From Limibacter armeniacum (GTDB taxonomy: Bacteria > Bacteroidota > Bacteroidia > Cytophagales > Flammeovirgaceae): a stretch of DNA of 64,000 bases. Positions 1 through 14,583 of this stretch are shown in pieces (positions within the stretch are counted from its first letter, which is position 1; every line of letters begins with the position of its first letter). The stretch is from assembly GCF_036880985.1 (NCBI RefSeq), contig NZ_JBAJNO010000006.1:1-64000 (forward strand), written 5' to 3'. Below the pieces are notes generated by a model. That model saw only the letters and a program-made list of their open reading frames with translations, searched no databases and was not told where the DNA came from. Made by a program: the position numbers and the translations under genes.

Positions 1-1643
1 TCAGGAACATCAAGGATGGGGATGTGGTAGAGATCAGTAGCAAAAGAGGAACGGTAAGGGTACATGCCCAGTTGACAGACAAGATCAAGGAAGGAGTGGT
101 TTTTTTACCGATGCATTGGGGTAAAATACTGCAACATGATCTGGCAAGAACCAATAACCTTACAGACAGACTTCTGGATCCCATATCGAAAGAGCCTGAT
201 TTCAAGTATTCAGCTGTTGAGGTTGTTCGCTACAAGAAGCAACCTCAGCGTGTAATTGTGATAGGGGCTGGCGCAGCAGCTCACCGTTTCCTGATGACGT
301 ACCGGTCACTTAATCAGGAGGATGAAATCCTTGTTTTCTCTAAAGAAGAAATTCCTTTTTATGACAGGGTATTGTTACCGGAGTATGTCAATGAAACTTT
401 GACATTTGAGGAATTGCTCAAGTTTAGGAAAGGGGAGTTTGAAGCGCTTAATGCCTCCATTTATGTGAGTACGACTATTGAGCGCATAGAAAGAAGCATG
501 AAATTGGTTACTGATGACAGGGGACAGACCTATGCCTACGACAAACTGGTGATTGCTACAGGAAGTCGGGCGTTTTTACCTCCTGATACACCTATTCATT
601 TACCATGTGTATTCACCATGCGAAGTAAGGCACATGCGGATGCACTGAAGAAATATATCAATGGAAAAGGACATGTCGTGATTGTTGGAGGAGGTCTGTT
701 GGGATTGGAGTTGGCTTCAGCATTGAGGGAAATGGAAGTAGAGGTTTCTATCATCCAGTTGGCTTCCAGACTGATGGAACGGCAACTGGATACCATGGCA
801 AGTAACCTGCTAAGGGAACATGTGGAAGACTTGGGCATACAGGTTTATACCAATGATCAGGTACAGGAAGTAGCCTATGACAATATTTCCAAAACAGCGA
901 CAGCGCACCTGAAAAGTGGTAAGTCATTGACTTGTGATGCCGTGGTTTATGCCATTGGTACAAGACCCAATGTAGAAATAGGAAAAGAGGCAGGGTTGAC
1001 GACAGGCAGAGGACTGGTGGTAAATCCTTACTTGCAAACCTCTGATCCGAATATATTTGCTGTAGGTGAAGTAGCGGAGTTTGAACAGAAGCTGAATGGA
1101 ACGACGGCTGCTGCCGAAGAGATGGCAGATATTATGGCACGTTTTATTGCAGGAGATCGTCTGAGCCTGTACAGTGGAACTGTTCCGATGAACATCCTTA
1201 AATTCTCTACATTTGACTTGTGTTCATTAGGGATAACTGAAATACCAGCCAAGGCTATAGGCTATGATGAGGTCATCTTACTGGATAAGTCCAAGCGATA
1301 TTACAAGAAATGTATTATCTATAAAGACAGGTTGGTAGGGGCCGTTTTGATGGGAGACAAGGCGGAATTTGCTGAGTTTAAGAAACTGATTGGTGGTAGA
1401 ACAGAGCTGGCAGAGAAAAGGGAACAACTGCTGCGGGCATTTGGAGAGCAGCAACCTGTAAAAGGGGAATTGGTGTGTAGCTGTGGAAATGTAGGGAAAG
1501 GCAATATTGAAGAAGCCATCCAAGGAGGGTGTACCGACTATAAGAAGTTGTGTGAGCAAACGGGTGCAGGACTGGGTTGTGGAAGTTGTAAGCCCGAAGT
1601 GAAGGATATATTGGATGCCTTTATGGTGGCAATACAACCATAA
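1..1643 (+). CDS. Assimilatory nitrate reductase with fused NirB-like flavoprotein and [2Fe-2S] domain (5' partial)
   Basis: The reading frame is already open at base 3, so the gene begins upstream of the window; the GTG at 24 is not the real start. The first ~60 visible residues match the end of a molybdopterin-dinucleotide-binding domain (DGDVVEISSKRG, then FLPMHWG), as in NasA/NarB nitrate reductases. A complete pyridine-nucleotide-disulphide oxidoreductase module follows, with an FAD loop (VIVIGAGAAA), an NAD(P)H loop (VVIVGGGLLGLELA) and a second FAD motif (IFAVGEVAEF). The C-terminus is a BFD-like [2Fe-2S] domain with CSCG near 1476 and CGSC near 1578. The inferred role is cytoplasmic NAD(P)H-driven reduction of nitrate to nitrite in one polypeptide. 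The NirB siroheme domain is absent. The next gene follows after 34 bp and is probably in the same operon. Confidence 0.85.
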   Translation, partial: RNIKDGDVVEISSKRGTVRVHAQLTDKIKEGVVFLPMHWGKILQHDLARTNNLTDRLLDPISKEPDFKYSAVEVVRYKKQPQRVIVIGAGAAAHRFLMTYRSLNQEDEILVFSKEEIPFYDRVLLPEYVNETLTFEELLKFRKGEFEALNASIYVSTTIERIERSMKLVTDDRGQTYAYDKLVIATGSRAFLPPDTPIHLPCVFTMRSKAHADALKKYINGKGHVVIVGGGLLGLELASALREMEVEVSIIQLASRLMERQLDTMASNLLREHVEDLGIQVYTNDQVQEVAYDNISKTATAHLKSGKSLTCDAVVYAIGTRPNVEIGKEAGLTTGRGLVVNPYLQTSDPNIFAVGEVAEFEQKLNGTTAAAEEMADIMARFIAGDRLSLYSGTVPMNILKFSTFDLCSLGITEIPAKAIGYDEVILLDKSKRYYKKCIIYKDRLVGAVLMGDKAEFAEFKKLIGGRTELAEKREQLLRAFGEQQPVKGELVCSCGNVGKGNIEEAIQGGCTDYKKLCEQTGAGLGCGSCKPEVKDILDAFMVAIQP

Positions 1644-1677: not shown

Positions 1678-3120
1678 ATGGGCAATCAAATTCAAAAAAG
1701 AGACCTGATTAGGGTATTTGTAAAAGGAGGAATCATCTCTCCAGGTGACTTGCTTAAGATCGTACTGACAGCAGAAGAGTTGGGAGCAAGTCATGTACAT
1801 TTCGGCTCCCGTCAGGATATCCTATTTCCGGTTGCAGAGAAGAAAAGGGATACACTGGAAACCACATTCCGTTCCATTCAAACCCAATATGACAGTGAGG
1901 AAGAAGGCTTTCAGAATGTCGTTAGCTCCTATACGGCACTGGATGTGATGGCATCTACCTCGTGGCTGGCACCCCATATGTACCATTATATTCTGGATAC
2001 TTTTGAATACCAACCCTCTATCAAAATCAATATTGTTGACCCTGCTCAGTCAATGGTACCCCTTTTTACAGGGCAGGTAAACTTTGTGGCATCTGAAAAT
2101 GAAAATTACTGGTATTGCTATATCAGGAGGTCAGATCAGGACAATGGATTGTGGAAATGCCCAAAGCTGATTTACAGTTATGACTTGGTCAAGTTGGCGC
2201 ATTATATTGAGCAACAGCAATTATTGGATTGCGCTGACAACTGGGACATTCTTTGGGAAAAAATTGAGGCAACAGTTCAGTTAAATACGATTCGTATTAC
2301 ACATGATTTGAAAATGCCTTCTGATCCTTTTCCTTATTATGAAGGGATGAACAGGATGAATGATGGAAAATATTGGTTGGGGCTTTACTGGCGTAACAAT
2401 CGCTACGATATCTCATTTCTGAAAGTCATGTGCCTGCTATGTCAGGAAACCAAAATTGGGAAAATTAGCCTTACACCTTGGAAGTCATTCCTGATCAAAG
2501 GTATTGACCGAAGTGAACGTATCACATGGGAAAAACTGCTTGGTAAATTTGGGTTGAATGTTCGTCACTCATCTCTGGAGCTGAACTGGCATTTGCCCGT
2601 CTTGAATGAGGATGCCTTGTCGCTGAAAAACTTCCTTGTTAGGGCATTGGACAAGCAAGATATCAGTACATATGGGTTGACTTTTACTGTGAAGTCAGGT
2701 CCTCAAATTCTCTTTACAACAGTGGTGATCGAGCGAAACGAGCAGGATGAAAACTGGATGAATGATACTTACAATATCCTGTATGCAAAGGACTTTAACC
2801 CTAATAATGCAGAGTACTTGTACTACGCCAAGGATGTAAGGAAAGAGATACTTCCCGCCTTGATGATTGAGGTAAGCCGTATGTACTATGAGCAGATGGA
2901 TACCAGTGGTGCCATTTTTAATAAGGACAATGCTGATGAGAAAAAGGTAAAACTCATTTACCAATGTCCTAACTGCCTGACGGTATATGATGAGCAGTTT
3001 GGTGATCCAGAGCAGCAAGTCAAGAAAGGAACGCTATTTATGATGTTGCCTGATGACTATTCCTGTAGTGTATGTGGTAGTCCTAAGAGTACTTTTATAG
3101 AGAGGGCAGGAGAAAATTGA
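1678..3120 (+). CDS. Nitrite/sulfite-reductase-like protein lacking cofactor cysteines, with C-terminal rubredoxin domain
   Basis: 480 residues. Residues ~5-55 and ~235-290 resemble the two ferredoxin-like half-domains of NirA/CysI reductases (LIRVFVKGGIISPGDL, and KIGKISLTPWKSFLIKGI). The middle (~80-140) aligns by eye with the part of NirA that normally carries cysteines, but the expected cysteines are replaced (NVVSSYTALDVM; INIVDPAQSMVP), so siroheme and [4Fe-4S] binding looks impossible. Residues ~425-480 form a normal rubredoxin: C430-P-N-C433 and C463-S-V-C466, with a GDPEQQ stretch and PDDYSC. Position directly after nitrate reductase suggests an electron-transfer or scaffold role in nitrate assimilation rather than catalysis; this is inference. 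A bidirectional terminator follows the stop codon. Confidence 0.75.
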   Translation: MGNQIQKRDLIRVFVKGGIISPGDLLKIVLTAEELGASHVHFGSRQDILFPVAEKKRDTLETTFRSIQTQYDSEEEGFQNVVSSYTALDVMASTSWLAPHMYHYILDTFEYQPSIKINIVDPAQSMVPLFTGQVNFVASENENYWYCYIRRSDQDNGLWKCPKLIYSYDLVKLAHYIEQQQLLDCADNWDILWEKIEATVQLNTIRITHDLKMPSDPFPYYEGMNRMNDGKYWLGLYWRNNRYDISFLKVMCLLCQETKIGKISLTPWKSFLIKGIDRSERITWEKLLGKFGLNVRHSSLELNWHLPVLNEDALSLKNFLVRALDKQDISTYGLTFTVKSGPQILFTTVVIERNEQDENWMNDTYNILYAKDFNPNNAEYLYYAKDVRKEILPALMIEVSRMYYEQMDTSGAIFNKDNADEKKVKLIYQCPNCLTVYDEQFGDPEQQVKKGTLFMMLPDDYSCSVCGSPKSTFIERAGEN

Positions 3121-9600: not shown

Positions 9601-12600
9601 ATGAGAAAGAAAATACTACTCGGTATAGCATTCTTTTTATGCATACCTGTAATCCAAGGACTATGTACTGACGTTAAGTTTAACGTCAATATGGACTATC
9701 AAATTAAGCAAGGCTTTTTTGACCCTGCTGCAGACCAAGTGGAAGTGACCGGCAGTGGCTGGAGTGGTGCACTAGCGATGACCGATACAGATGGCGACCA
9801 TATTTATTCTGCTGTTGTATCTTCGTTAGCTGCTGATACGGAAATCACATATGCTTTTCGTGTGAATGCAAGTAACACGGAAAACACTTCCCGAACCTAC
9901 CTTATTCAGACTTCGCAAAACAACTTGTACGATTGGTTTAACAATGTGGAGTCACCATACCCTTTTGCAGACTTCTACTGTTCAACCACTACACCGATCC
10001 CTGGAGAGGCTGTACGGTTTTTTGAGTATTCGGATGGGGGAGCTGCTACCTCATGGAACTGGACTTTTGAAGGCGGATATCCTGCTACTTCTACTGAAAA
10101 GGAGCCGATTGTCAGTTATGCCACAGCAGGTACTTATAGTGTGACGCTGACAGCCACCAACAGTGCAGGCCAGACAACCGTAACCAAATCATCTCACATT
10201 GAGGTAAAGGCGACAGATCAGGTATTGGGCTGGTGGAACGATGCGGTTTTCTATCAGGTTTACCCACTTTCTTTCAAGGACAGTGATTGTGATGGAAATG
10301 GAGATTTTCAAGGACTTATCGAGAAGCTTGATTACCTGAATGACGGCAACCCCAATACAACTTCTGACCTTGGGGTGGATGCTTTATACCTAATGCCAAT
10401 TCATGAGGTAACCAATACAAATTATGGAGGTTATGAAGTGACCGACTACAAAAGTATCTGGAGCGAGTATGGCAGTTACAGTGACCTCTCCCAACTGTTG
10501 AATGAGGCACATAACAGAGGAATGAAAGTGATCCTGGATATGGTTTTTAACCATACAAGTAAGGAACACCCTTGGTTTTTGCAATCGCAACAAGGTAATA
10601 ACCCAAGAGATGATTTTTACCATTGGCGTGCAGATGATGCAGGGTGGTCTTGGTGGAGTAACCCCGGTTCAGGTTATCCCTCAGATATGGCATTTTACTG
10701 GTCAAGATTTGCCAATGGGGCTACACCTGACCTGAATTATGATAATCCTGAGGTCAGAAATGCGGTAATGGACATTACACAATATTGGTTGGATCAGCAT
10801 ATTGATGGATTCAGGCTGGATGTTCCTTACATGCTATATCAGACAGGTGATGCCACATTGGATGAGGAGTGGCACAACTTGCCGGAAACCTATGCCTTTT
10901 GGAGGGAATGGAGAAAACTGGTGAAAAATGACAATCCTGACAATTTTACGGTAGGCGAAACATGGGTACGTTATTGGGATAATCCTTATGCATTGGAGGA
11001 CTTGAAGCATGCAGCGAAGTATGTATATGAAGGGTTTGATGTTGGCTTTCAGTTTGATATTGCCTTGGGAATAGAGGATGCCTTGAACTCAGAAAACAAG
11101 GCGGATATCCAACAACCAATGGAAGATGTAATGGCTTATTATCCGTTTCTGCAGTTTGGGGTTTTCAATTCAAACCATGACCTGTTTCCAAGAGGAAATG
11201 GCTACACAGCTCAAAGGATCAAGGACCGATTGTCAAACAATAAGGATGCAAAAGCAAAAGTAGCGGGCGTACTGACATTGACAGCTCCGGGTGTTCCTTT
11301 TGTTTATTATGGAGAGGAAATTGGTGCAGCAGGAGGCAATGCCCGTTTGCCAATGCAGTGGAGTAATGGCAACAATGCAGGCTTTTCTGATTGTGGATCA
11401 TGGACTTCTATTGGCAGTGATTATCAGCAGTACAATGTCGCAAACGAGACCAACGACCCTAACTCATTCTTAAGCTTATATCGAAACCTGATTCAGGTTC
11501 GTAAGTCAGAGATGGCATTGAAGCGTGGAGACTATCAAACAGTGAACACTTCAAGCAACAGTATTTATTCTTTTATGAGAAAGTATAATGATGAGGTAAT
11601 CATTGTAATGCTCAACCTTTCAGCCAATCAGCAGGACAATGTGTCTTTCAGTATTTCAGGAACTCAAATTCCTGATGAAAACTATGTGATGACCGACCTG
11701 TTGGGGCAAGGGAATGTGAATGTCAATGTAAGTGGAGGAGATATCAATGGCTGGGTTCCTTTCTCTTCCATTGCAGGAAACAGCTTTTACATTCTGAAAC
11801 TGAATACAGGCTCTTTAACAAACAATGCACCATCGGTAGATCAGTTAGCATCGCAGACGATCAATCTGGAAAGTGGAGCAACACAGGTTCAACTGACAGG
11901 TATCAGCGATGGTAATTTCTGTACACAAAGTCTTTCAGCATCAGCAACAATTCAAAACACGTCAGTGGCACAGGTGGCTGTTAATGGTATCACTTGTGGA
12001 AGTACTGGAAACTTGACAATTACGCCAGTGTCAGCAGGAACTACCACTGTGACCGTCACGCTACAGGATGATGGCGGAACAGCTGATGGAGGTGTTGACC
12101 AAACATCAATGAGTTTTACTGTAAATGTAATTGGATATCCTGCTGCGCCAACTGATTTGCAGGTAACCGAATTGTCTAAAACATCTCTTAACCTTCATTG
12201 GACAGACAACTCAGCGATTGAAACAGGGTATGCGATTTACCAATCTACAGATGGCAACAAACCAACGAACCCGGTTGTGACCTTAGCGGCCAATACCACC
12301 ACTTTTGCGGTAGAGAACCTAAGCAGGTTTGTCGACTACCACTTCTGGGTGGAGGCAGTAAACGGACAAGGAACAAGTGCAGATATGCAAGTGGCATATA
12401 CGATTGAGTCCTCGAATGTGGCATTGAATAAAACTGCAACGGCTTCGGACGAAGAAACTTATTCAGGTACAGATTTCCTTGCTTCTTTGGCAGTAGATGG
12501 GATCAATGGTGATTTCTGGAACAGGTGGTCTTCGGCAGGGAGTACAGACTTTAATCAGGAAGAGTGGATTAAGGTAGATTTGGGAGCAGTATATGAGTTG

Positions 12601-14583
12601 GACAAGGTTGTGGTTAGTTGGGAAAATGCCAATGCTGAAAACTATTATATCATGGCTTCCAACAGCAATATTGTACCTGATCCTGATAATAGTTCGTGGC
12701 AGAAAATCTATATGGAAGGAATGCCTAATGAAGGAAGAACGGATGAAGTGACCTCTAATCTTACAGGGCGCTATATCGCCATTTACTGTAGCCAAAAAGC
12801 ACATGAATATGGCTATTCAATCTATGAATTAGAGGCATATGGTGTGCCGGTAACGGATGGTGGAACAACAAACAATGCTCCAGTCGTATTTGCAGGAAAT
12901 AACCAAACATTGGGATATACACAGACCAGCACTCAGCTTGAAGGTACAGGTTCAGACCCTGATGGGGATACTGTCAGTTACCTGTGGAGTCAGTTGTCAG
13001 GGGCTGTGGTATCTATTTCTGATTTACAGTCACCTACTCCTACAATCAGTGGAATGGTGGCAGGAAACACCTATACATTCCGTCTTACGGTGAGTGATGG
13101 TACCCTTCAGTCTTCAGATGATGTGACCATTGTGGTGGATACTGCTCCAGCAACTCAGTCGCCATATGGAGGTATTGCAGCGACAATCCCTGGGATAATT
13201 GAAGCCGAAGCATATGATGAAGGCGGGCAAGGGATCGCCTATCAGGATAATGACACCGGTAATAATGGTGGGGCATTCAGAACGAATGAGGATGTAGACA
13301 TAGAGTCACCTACAAGTGGTGTGTATAACGTGGGTTGGACGCAAGCAGGCGAGTGGCTAGAATACTCTGTAAATGTTACCACTACAGGTCAATATCATAT
13401 CATCTCGACAGTGGCGACTGCGACATCCAGTGCTTTCCATGTGGAGATTGACGGTACGAATGTGACTGGAACAATTGCCGTATCCAATACGGGCGGATGG
13501 AGTAATTTCAGTACAGTACAGAGTACAGACTTTAACCTAAGTGCAGGAGCGCATATTGTTAGGATTGCTATGGAGTCCATAGATTTGAACCTTGACAAGG
13601 TTGAGTTTGTATGGGTGCCTGATTGTACCACTCCAACACTCAATGCACAGCATCAGGTGAATGGTGGCAACTGGATTGCTGGTACTGCTGTATCTGCTGA
13701 CCAAGGAGATGACTTGGTTCTGAATGTACAGGCAAGTACTACAGGAACGTGGAACTGGACAGGACCAAATGGGTTTACTGCCAGTACAGCCCAAGTTACT
13801 TTGGCAGATGTCACAATATCTGATGCGGGCAATTATACAGTCACTTTTTCAGATGATACAGGCTGTACCAATAGCTTAACTTTTACATTGTCAGTAGAAA
13901 GTGCTTCAGTAGCAGATACTTATTATATCAAAAACAGATGGCAGGAGACTTACCTTTATGATGGAGGTAATGATGTGAATTATGGCACCTTCAGCAGTAA
14001 TGCTACTTACCAATGGAAACTGATAGAAATGGATGGTTATCAATTGATTCAAAATGTTGGAACAGGTGATTATATGAATATCGAAAACCTGCAAGGTAAA
14101 GTAGAATCTACAAACGTTGAAAGTGGATTCTACAGTGCACATTGGTCGCTGGAGGATATTGACATTGATTATAAAAGAATTCGAAACAGATGGCAGGCAA
14201 GTGATTATTTGCATGTGGAAAACACCAATGGAACTGTTGAGTACAGTAATATTTGGAGTGGTTCTTATTCGAGCCATTGGATTCTTGAACCTGTTTCTTC
14301 ATCTGCAAGAATGGCTTCCAACTTTGAAAATGAATGGAAGAAAGAAAATAAAATTCAAATATATCCTAACCCAACCAATGGGGTAACGACTGTTCAGTTT
14401 AATACCAATGAAGTAAGAAGCATTAGGCTACTCTCATCAACTGGAATTGAATTGAATCATCAGCAATTGGAGGATGGAATGCCAAGCATTCAAATTGATC
14501 TTTCAAACTACCCTGTAGGAGTATACTTCATTCAGTTGGAAACATCAGAAGGGGTAAAGGTCTACCAAGTAGTAAAAAACTGA
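9601..14583 (+). CDS. Giant multidomain secreted GH13 alpha-amylase with T9SS sorting domain
   Basis: 1660 residues. Order: signal peptide (~1-22); starch-binding-like beta domain (~23-110); PKD domain (~115-200); GH13 catalytic domain (~210-735) with nucleophile D407 (DGFRLDVPY), acid/base E453 (TVGETW) and transition-state D527 (NSNHD), plus DMVFNHTS; Ig/cadherin-like region (~740-845); fibronectin type III (~847-932); F5/8 discoidin-like domain (~939-1085); PKD/REJ-like domain (~1088-1180); CBM6-like domain (~1195-1340); Ig-like repeat (~1345-1435); two ricin/fascin-like repeats beginning YYIKNRW and RIRNRW (~1440-1575); and the type IX sorting domain (~1582-1660, IQIYPNPTNG...GVYFIQLE). 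The inferred role is surface or secreted endo-hydrolysis of starch or glycogen, feeding SusCDE. It opens the glucan locus and has its own strong terminator. Confidence 0.9.
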   Translation: MRKKILLGIAFFLCIPVIQGLCTDVKFNVNMDYQIKQGFFDPAADQVEVTGSGWSGALAMTDTDGDHIYSAVVSSLAADTEITYAFRVNASNTENTSRTYLIQTSQNNLYDWFNNVESPYPFADFYCSTTTPIPGEAVRFFEYSDGGAATSWNWTFEGGYPATSTEKEPIVSYATAGTYSVTLTATNSAGQTTVTKSSHIEVKATDQVLGWWNDAVFYQVYPLSFKDSDCDGNGDFQGLIEKLDYLNDGNPNTTSDLGVDALYLMPIHEVTNTNYGGYEVTDYKSIWSEYGSYSDLSQLLNEAHNRGMKVILDMVFNHTSKEHPWFLQSQQGNNPRDDFYHWRADDAGWSWWSNPGSGYPSDMAFYWSRFANGATPDLNYDNPEVRNAVMDITQYWLDQHIDGFRLDVPYMLYQTGDATLDEEWHNLPETYAFWREWRKLVKNDNPDNFTVGETWVRYWDNPYALEDLKHAAKYVYEGFDVGFQFDIALGIEDALNSENKADIQQPMEDVMAYYPFLQFGVFNSNHDLFPRGNGYTAQRIKDRLSNNKDAKAKVAGVLTLTAPGVPFVYYGEEIGAAGGNARLPMQWSNGNNAGFSDCGSWTSIGSDYQQYNVANETNDPNSFLSLYRNLIQVRKSEMALKRGDYQTVNTSSNSIYSFMRKYNDEVIIVMLNLSANQQDNVSFSISGTQIPDENYVMTDLLGQGNVNVNVSGGDINGWVPFSSIAGNSFYILKLNTGSLTNNAPSVDQLASQTINLESGATQVQLTGISDGNFCTQSLSASATIQNTSVAQVAVNGITCGSTGNLTITPVSAGTTTVTVTLQDDGGTADGGVDQTSMSFTVNVIGYPAAPTDLQVTELSKTSLNLHWTDNSAIETGYAIYQSTDGNKPTNPVVTLAANTTTFAVENLSRFVDYHFWVEAVNGQGTSADMQVAYTIESSNVALNKTATASDEETYSGTDFLASLAVDGINGDFWNRWSSAGSTDFNQEEWIKVDLGAVYELDKVVVSWENANAENYYIMASNSNIVPDPDNSSWQKIYMEGMPNEGRTDEVTSNLTGRYIAIYCSQKAHEYGYSIYELEAYGVPVTDGGTTNNAPVVFAGNNQTLGYTQTSTQLEGTGSDPDGDTVSYLWSQLSGAVVSISDLQSPTPTISGMVAGNTYTFRLTVSDGTLQSSDDVTIVVDTAPATQSPYGGIAATIPGIIEAEAYDEGGQGIAYQDNDTGNNGGAFRTNEDVDIESPTSGVYNVGWTQAGEWLEYSVNVTTTGQYHIISTVATATSSAFHVEIDGTNVTGTIAVSNTGGWSNFSTVQSTDFNLSAGAHIVRIAMESIDLNLDKVEFVWVPDCTTPTLNAQHQVNGGNWIAGTAVSADQGDDLVLNVQASTTGTWNWTGPNGFTASTAQVTLADVTISDAGNYTVTFSDDTGCTNSLTFTLSVESASVADTYYIKNRWQETYLYDGGNDVNYGTFSSNATYQWKLIEMDGYQLIQNVGTGDYMNIENLQGKVESTNVESGFYSAHWSLEDIDIDYKRIRNRWQASDYLHVENTNGTVEYSNIWSGSYSSHWILEPVSSSARMASNFENEWKKENKIQIYPNPTNGVTTVQFNTNEVRSIRLLSSTGIELNHQQLEDGMPSIQIDLSNYPVGVYFIQLETSEGVKVYQVVKN

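Follow-up and report, generated by a model that had tools for sequence, protein, structure and literature searches.

A rubredoxin-tailed pseudo-NirA protein encoded behind fused nitrate reductases of Bacteroidota: a possible accessory subunit

In the Limibacter armeniacum DNA considered here (the window, a whole stretch of 64,000 nucleotides), a gene for a nitrite-reductase-like protein ending in a rubredoxin immediately follows one for a nitrate reductase that carries a fused FAD module. The locus raises the question of what a protein of the NirA type would do beside a nitrate reductase, and whether it could still be a reductase itself. A preliminary description had noted this adjacency, correctly, and had left the choice between a redox partner or chaperone dedicated to the fused nitrate reductase and an unknown step in nitrite handling.

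The reductase fold and its ligand positions

The reading frame is open throughout and encodes 480 amino acids, arranged as two NirA-type nitrite/sulfite-reductase halves followed by a C-terminal rubredoxin (Table 1). Both elements had been recognized beforehand and are borne out by Pfam, in which PF03460 scores 43.3 bits over the whole protein (cut-off 24) in two stretches, the best at residues 10-56, and PF00301 scores 51.9 bits (cut-off 23) at residues 428-473, where the four cysteines stand as first described. The curated cut-offs of more specific models are not reached, neither by the NirA equivalog NF007126 (NCBIfam; 15.3 bits against 523) nor by the CobG precorrin-3B synthase model TIGR02435 (16 bits against 234.8), whose weak matches cover residues 225-300 and 223-300, respectively, nor by the rubredoxin equivalog NF045768 (NCBIfam; 46.8 bits against 90). 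PF01077, the domain that bears the metal ligands of true reductases, is absent from the Pfam list of the protein to E 1, a search in which the HMMER filters drop weak matches, and scores 75.7 bits in NirB with the same library. Likewise, no match to PF09655 (NarM / Nitr_red_assoc) was found to E 1 with the Pfam profiles.

Modeling of the full-length protein with AlphaFold2 from an alignment of 28 sequences (mean pLDDT 84.9, pTM 0.69) placed residues 1-297 on Mycobacterium tuberculosis NirA (1zj8, residues 86-407) with Z 24.1 and rmsd 3.4 over 287 aligned residues at 14% identity. In Foldseek, nitrite or sulfite reductases fill the top 31 matches, with global TM-scores below 0.5 because domain placement in the model is different or less certain. 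A separate model of residues 205-420 (70 sequences, pLDDT 76.5, pTM 0.56) matched the second half of the nitrite reductase 3b0h with Z 11.0 and rmsd 4.0 over 200 aligned residues, the best non-reductase match being IspG at Z 7.8. Together, the two matches indicate that both reductase halves are present. The rubredoxin domain of the full-length model matched 1rdg with Z 9.4.

Table 1. Features of the pseudo-NirA-rubredoxin gene and of the adjoining nitrate reductase gene (window positions)
Feature	Position	Strand	Basis
Whole gene, pseudo-NirA body and rubredoxin	1678..3120	+	Open frame; family alignment, n=109
First ferredoxin-like half domain, PF03460, residues 10-56, with R12 and R45-Q46	1705..1845	+	Pfam; CysI alignment
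First NIR_SIR-like domain, residues about 57-204	1846..2289	+	Fold match of the model to NirA
NVVSSYTALDV, residues 80-90, first half	1915..1947	+	N80 aligned with CysI N154
INIVDPAQSMVP, residues 117-128, first half	2026..2061	+	Adjacent K116 aligned with CysI K217, plus or minus about one residue
Second ferredoxin-like half domain, residues about 225-300	2350..2577	+	Weak NirA/CobG matches; model of residues 205-420
Conserved CxxC, C252 and C255, in helix 245-257	2431..2442	+	Alignment, n=109; helix from predicted model
RHSSLELNWHLP, residues about 296-307, near CysI C434/C440, without Cys	2563..2598	+	hhalign, gaps here
TVKSGPQILF, residues 337-346, near CysI C479/C483, without Cys	2686..2715	+	hhalign, gaps here
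Rubredoxin domain PF00301, residues 428-473, ligands C430, C433, C463, C466	2959..3096	+	Pfam; fold match to 1rdg
Fused nitrate reductase, 3' part: molybdopterin-binding end, NADH/FAD, BFD [2Fe-2S]	3..1643	+	ORF and Pfam

Conservation was read from a family alignment of 109 sequences, comprising the window protein, 28 loci from a draw of the phylum and 80 from a scan of genome contigs with two patterns taken from the second half; the two sets partly overlap, and combined counts include some genomes twice. Twenty-two columns are identical in 109/109, which speaks against a chance occurrence. Profile alignment of the family (hhalign) with CysI and four NirA proteins gave a probability of 95.4 (E 2e-8, 388 columns) and, on repetition, 92.0 (E 6.7e-7). 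The CysI cysteines 434, 440, 479 and 483, the [4Fe-4S]/siroheme ligands, are common to the four NirA proteins and all lie in the second half. No cysteine was found at or beside the window positions aligned with them, positions that stand at or beside alignment gaps, and no conserved set of cysteines was found elsewhere in the body except a CxxC, with no other second-half cysteine column exceeding 35/109. On its sequence, then, the pseudo-NirA body is without the [4Fe-4S]/siroheme cysteines. This loss had been reported before from NVVSSYTALDV and INIVDPAQSMVP; both sit in the first half, whereas the NirA/CysI ligands belong to the second, so these were not the positions to inspect, although the conclusion holds. 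The accompanying term "cysteine-free" was too strong, as the CxxC shows.

That motif is the only strongly conserved cysteine pair outside the rubredoxin: C252 is found in 105/109 and C255 in 108/109 aligned sequences, and both in 104/109. It was considered as a strict metal or catalytic site, being identical in the first 28 sequences, but one cysteine is lost in 5/109 and therefore no mechanism was rested on it. In the rubredoxin, all four cysteines are kept in the 108/108 sequences that have the domain. Two of these (L055 and L060) have a shortened rubredoxin with cysteine knuckles 9 and 16 residues apart, against the usual distance of about 30, and retain little beyond the knuckles, which would equally suit a structural zinc site.

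Some reductase positions are kept. Those compared include R83, R117, R153, K215 and K217 of CysI, numbered from the alignments, which have functional roles in that enzyme. Arg or Lys occupies the positions of R12 (CysI R83; 108/109), R45 (R117; 109/109) and K116 (K217; 108/109, where the pairing may shift by one residue), and Asn that of N80 (N154; 109/109). Residue 114, aligned with K215, is Arg or Lys in 75/109 and Ser in the window protein, and Q79, aligned with R153, is Arg or Lys in 0/109. The idea that the ancestral active site was kept as a whole was rejected, since positions invariant in the family coincide with those invariant in CysI/NirA in 9 cases against 8.2 expected (P 0.44); another alignment run gave 9 against 6.5 (P 0.17). 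Only single points, such as R12, R45, N80 and K116, stand.

Gene neighborhood, replicon and distribution

On one strand, the cluster reads nirB (829 aa), nirD, a histidine kinase with a PilJ-type domain, a LuxR-type response regulator, the nitrate reductase and the pseudo-NirA-rubredoxin gene. Pfam domains of the fused nitrate reductase (NasA) are Molybdop_Fe4S4, molybdopterin domains, an NADH/FAD domain with Rubredoxin_C, and a BFD [2Fe-2S] domain, and its FAD/BFD module matches the NirB model at model positions 2-468 (E 3.7e-102). NirB of the cluster carries PF01077 and PF03460, with NirD on the same strand; because both lie in the cluster, no unknown step in nitrite handling needs to be invoked.

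The window starts inside the NasA gene. At its end (C6:183041-212502), the contig repeats its first 29,462 bases (window 1-29462) with zero mismatches, so that the missing part of NasA can be read at the contig end; the 1187-aa protein is complete at L031:6121-9684. The repeat probably arises from overlap between the two ends of a circular contig, a true long repeat being less likely. A second copy of the pseudo-NirA-rubredoxin gene was dismissed, as the two identical places on the contig fall inside this end repeat. Together with a Rep_3 initiator on the same contig (C6:119062), the repeat makes a circular plasmid of about 183 kb the probable carrier of the nitrate cluster. Rep_3 initiators are found on seven contigs of the genome (C1-C7), twice on C7 with the same score and about 30 kb apart, which suggests a genome rich in plasmids and perhaps a further circular contig left untrimmed. 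Elsewhere in the window (9601-14583), a 1660-aa ORF looks on inspection like a secreted, amylase-like enzyme of several domains.

The gene was found in 29/395 Bacteroidota genomes, its own included (E 1e-10), and the best 80 of at least 584 relatives confirmed in the contig scan come from Cyclobacteriaceae, Flammeovirga, Flavobacteriaceae, Balneolaceae, Fodinibius and others; by these matches it belongs to a large family spread through Bacteroidota. Of 108 homologous loci, 106 could be read upstream of the gene, and all 106 have fused NasA there; the other two (L059 and L174) start at a contig edge. No homologue with readable upstream sequence therefore lacked the fused enzyme. This linkage supports the earlier proposal of a partner dedicated to it, and the protein is probably such a partner. 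With start codons chosen by script, the 106 intervals between the two genes include 36 overlaps (18 of 4 bases, 9 of 1); 79 measure 100 bases or less, and 3 are longer than 400.

Among plasmid records, the gene was found in four from Bacteroidota, each of which also has fused NasA. In the two seen in detail, the gene is annotated "rubredoxin" and directly follows "nitrate reductase"; on the Hymenobacter plasmid, cobA lies directly 3' of it. Outside Bacteroidota, an Arthrobacter plasmid record, not among the four, matched 93% of fused NasA in two pieces (29% identity). A literature search found no paper naming the protein in its title or the opening of its abstract. Other ORFs can occur between NasA and the pseudo-NirA-rubredoxin gene: a PF09655 nitrate-reductase-associated protein in G091 (L058:9999-10499) and a 269-aa ORF without Pfam match (L060:7627-8433). 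NarM (PF09655) was rejected as a general companion, being present in 1/34 genomes only and having 0 matches in the genome of the window.

Co-occurrence was examined with the 1187-aa NasA as query (E 1e-150), which matched 41/395 genomes, 33 over the fused length (in G179, counted from residue 174) and 8 through stand-alone relatives only, at 42-45% identity. Of the 33, 28 also hold both NirB and the pseudo-NirA-rubredoxin gene, and a NirB search of all 395 genomes (E 1e-120) matched these 28 and no others; presence and absence of the gene track NirB exactly, an orphan in G126 excepted. This homologue (L059:267-1553) stands at the contig edge and ends before the rubredoxin; no rubredoxin cysteines were seen in any of the three forward frames just beyond it, and searches of the genome gave no fused NasA (E 1e-150) and no NirB (E 1e-120). 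In the remaining five fused-NasA genomes (G219, G050, G008, G155 and G179; loci L091-L095), no match to the pseudo-NirA-rubredoxin protein was found over whole genomes at E 1e-10, and no NirB; near NasA they carry NirA, with 62-100% identity to the query, the NirA of G155. They come from three families, and the NirA/NirB split may therefore reflect ancestry. In at least two of these loci (L092 and L094), an ORF between NasA and NirA was read by eye as flavodoxin-like, and in G179 (L095) NasA is split over two frames.

It was also considered whether the rubredoxin replaces a cluster missing from fused NasA, and counts of cluster cysteines did not support this. NasA keeps its [4Fe-4S] and BFD ligand cysteines in 26/28 genomes that have the gene, the frame of the other two (L039 and L048) having been misread by the script, and C1164 of the BFD region in 24/28. 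In genomes that lack it, the BFD cysteines are present in 5/5 and the N-terminal [4Fe-4S] cysteines in 4/5, the fifth being G179.

Divergence of the proteins was compared in 25 genomes of 27, two having been dropped for the misread NasA frame. Distances of the pseudo-NirA-rubredoxin protein correlate at 0.918 with those of NasA and 0.797 with those of NirB; the partial correlations are 0.785 with NasA given NirB and -0.337 with NirB given NasA. Among domains (98/109 sequences, those with NasA in one piece), the pseudo-NirA part has a partial correlation of 0.54 with the NasA FAD domain (bootstrap 0.43-0.66) and 0.17 with the molybdenum part (bootstrap 0.03-0.31). Linked inheritance of neighbors, or faster change of the FAD domain, can yield such correlations, which are therefore support for contact rather than proof of it.

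An accessory subunit and its alternatives

The pseudo-NirA-rubredoxin protein is tentatively proposed, as a possibility somewhat short of an even chance, to be a dedicated accessory or partner subunit of the NADH-dependent assimilatory fused NasA of Bacteroidota. Having lost the [4Fe-4S]/siroheme ligands, the pseudo-NirA body would not reduce nitrite. It may dock on the NirB-like C-terminal FAD/[2Fe-2S] module of NasA, by analogy with NirB, in which the reductase half and the FAD/[2Fe-2S] half lie side by side. Single electrons would be relayed or buffered by the tethered rubredoxin between the NasA module and the [4Fe-4S]-molybdenum half, and a rubredoxin so placed at NasA is most simply a one-electron relay. 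We infer physical docking, electron transfer and iron in the rubredoxin, where by sequence iron and zinc look alike. A relay fits the adjacent and overlapping genes, the strict keeping of the rubredoxin cysteines and the distance data, and the co-occurrence with fused NasA and NirB in 28 genomes also favors the proposed subunit. In the five gene-less genomes, fused NasA looks complete, so that in principle it could do without an additional carrier; these genomes, the exact tracking of NirB and the orphan in G126 are left unexplained by a subunit of NasA.

A wider interpretation, which is more doubtful, is that NasA and its NIR-type partner would form a NirB-like assembly throughout Bacteroidota, with the catalytic end exchanged so that catalysis is by molybdenum instead of siroheme, and with the rubredoxin as a new one-electron link; a NIR fold stripped of its metal centers would now complete a nitrate reductase. 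In the Bacteroidota examined, the NirB-type nitrate assimilation set always kept this third gene, named only "rubredoxin" where the annotation was seen. Should its product be a subunit for electron transfer or maturation, Bacteroidota models of NADH-driven nitrate assimilation are incomplete, and heterologous expression of these enzymes may be unsuccessful when the gene is left out. The protein would, in addition, be a case of a siroheme reductase fold maintained by strong selection although its catalytic metal ligands are gone.

The closest rival to an electron-relay subunit, though rather unlikely, is a maturation or stability factor for fused NasA, in which molybdenum cofactor, sulfur or immature enzyme would be bound by a basic conserved cleft and the CxxC, with the rubredoxin knuckles serving as a metal site or redox switch. 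The protein would then be like NarM or FdhD in action, while being neither. The gene slot directly behind NasA suits such a factor, and the PF09655 gene in this slot in G091, albeit in that one genome, indicates that the slot can hold nitrate reductase accessory genes; the CxxC is mostly complete, and at L038 ORFs that on inspection look like molybdenum cofactor genes are located downstream, on the other strand. However, a CxxC cysteine is dispensed with in five sequences, a strictly kept rubredoxin is not called for by a chaperone, and five genomes hold fused NasA without this protein.

Less probable again is an oxyanion- or siroheme-handling partner for NirBD, whose basic cleft would bind nitrite or siroheme and pass it to NirB. 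It would account for the restriction of NirB to genomes with the gene and for the gene-less genomes having NirA, not NirB, and it draws on the basic residues at the positions of CysI R83, R117 and K217 (the last to within one residue) and on cobA beside the gene on the Hymenobacter plasmid. Against this, the position of R153 is never basic, the overlap of invariant positions with CysI/NirA is at chance, and divergence tracks NasA, not NirB, when the other is held constant; moreover, the gene adjoins NasA, whereas NirB can be more than 10 kb off or on another contig. A real siroheme enzyme drawing its ligands from elsewhere, such as the CxxC, the sole strongly conserved candidate pair, is very improbable, as the CxxC lies in a helix of a ferredoxin-like half domain in the model, off the aligned ligand site, is incomplete in five sequences, and would serve a cell in which NirB with PF01077 is already present.

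Relation to known systems

With ferredoxin-nitrite reductase NirA and the sulfite reductase hemoprotein CysI, the window protein shares the fold and the two pseudo-symmetric halves; it differs in lacking the [4Fe-4S]/siroheme cysteines, in falling below the NirA cut-off and in its added rubredoxin tail. Like NarM (PF09655), encoded between NasA and the pseudo-NirA-rubredoxin gene in G091, it is the product of a gene associated with nitrate reductase, although it has no PF09655 match and PF09655 itself is confined to one of the 34 genomes. Joining of a rubredoxin to a larger redox protein is also seen in flavorubredoxin NorV, the class III hybrid cluster protein 7e0l and the alkane monooxygenase 8f6t, which are among the matches of the rubredoxin domain. 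The bodies of these three are catalysts with their own metal site, unlike the pseudo-NirA body, in which known ligands are missing.

A redox partner encoded with an assimilatory nitrate reductase has a parallel in Flp of Bradyrhizobium japonicum, where an flp mutant is reported to fail on nitrate but not on nitrite (PMC4724949). Flp is itself the FAD/NAD(P)H protein, a part that in Bacteroidota is already fused to NasA. A further likeness is to NirB, the large subunit of NADH-nitrite reductase, which the NasA FAD module and the pseudo-NirA-rubredoxin protein together resemble as if split in two; NirB keeps its siroheme half (PF01077), whereas the NIR-like half here is degenerate, doubled and separate.
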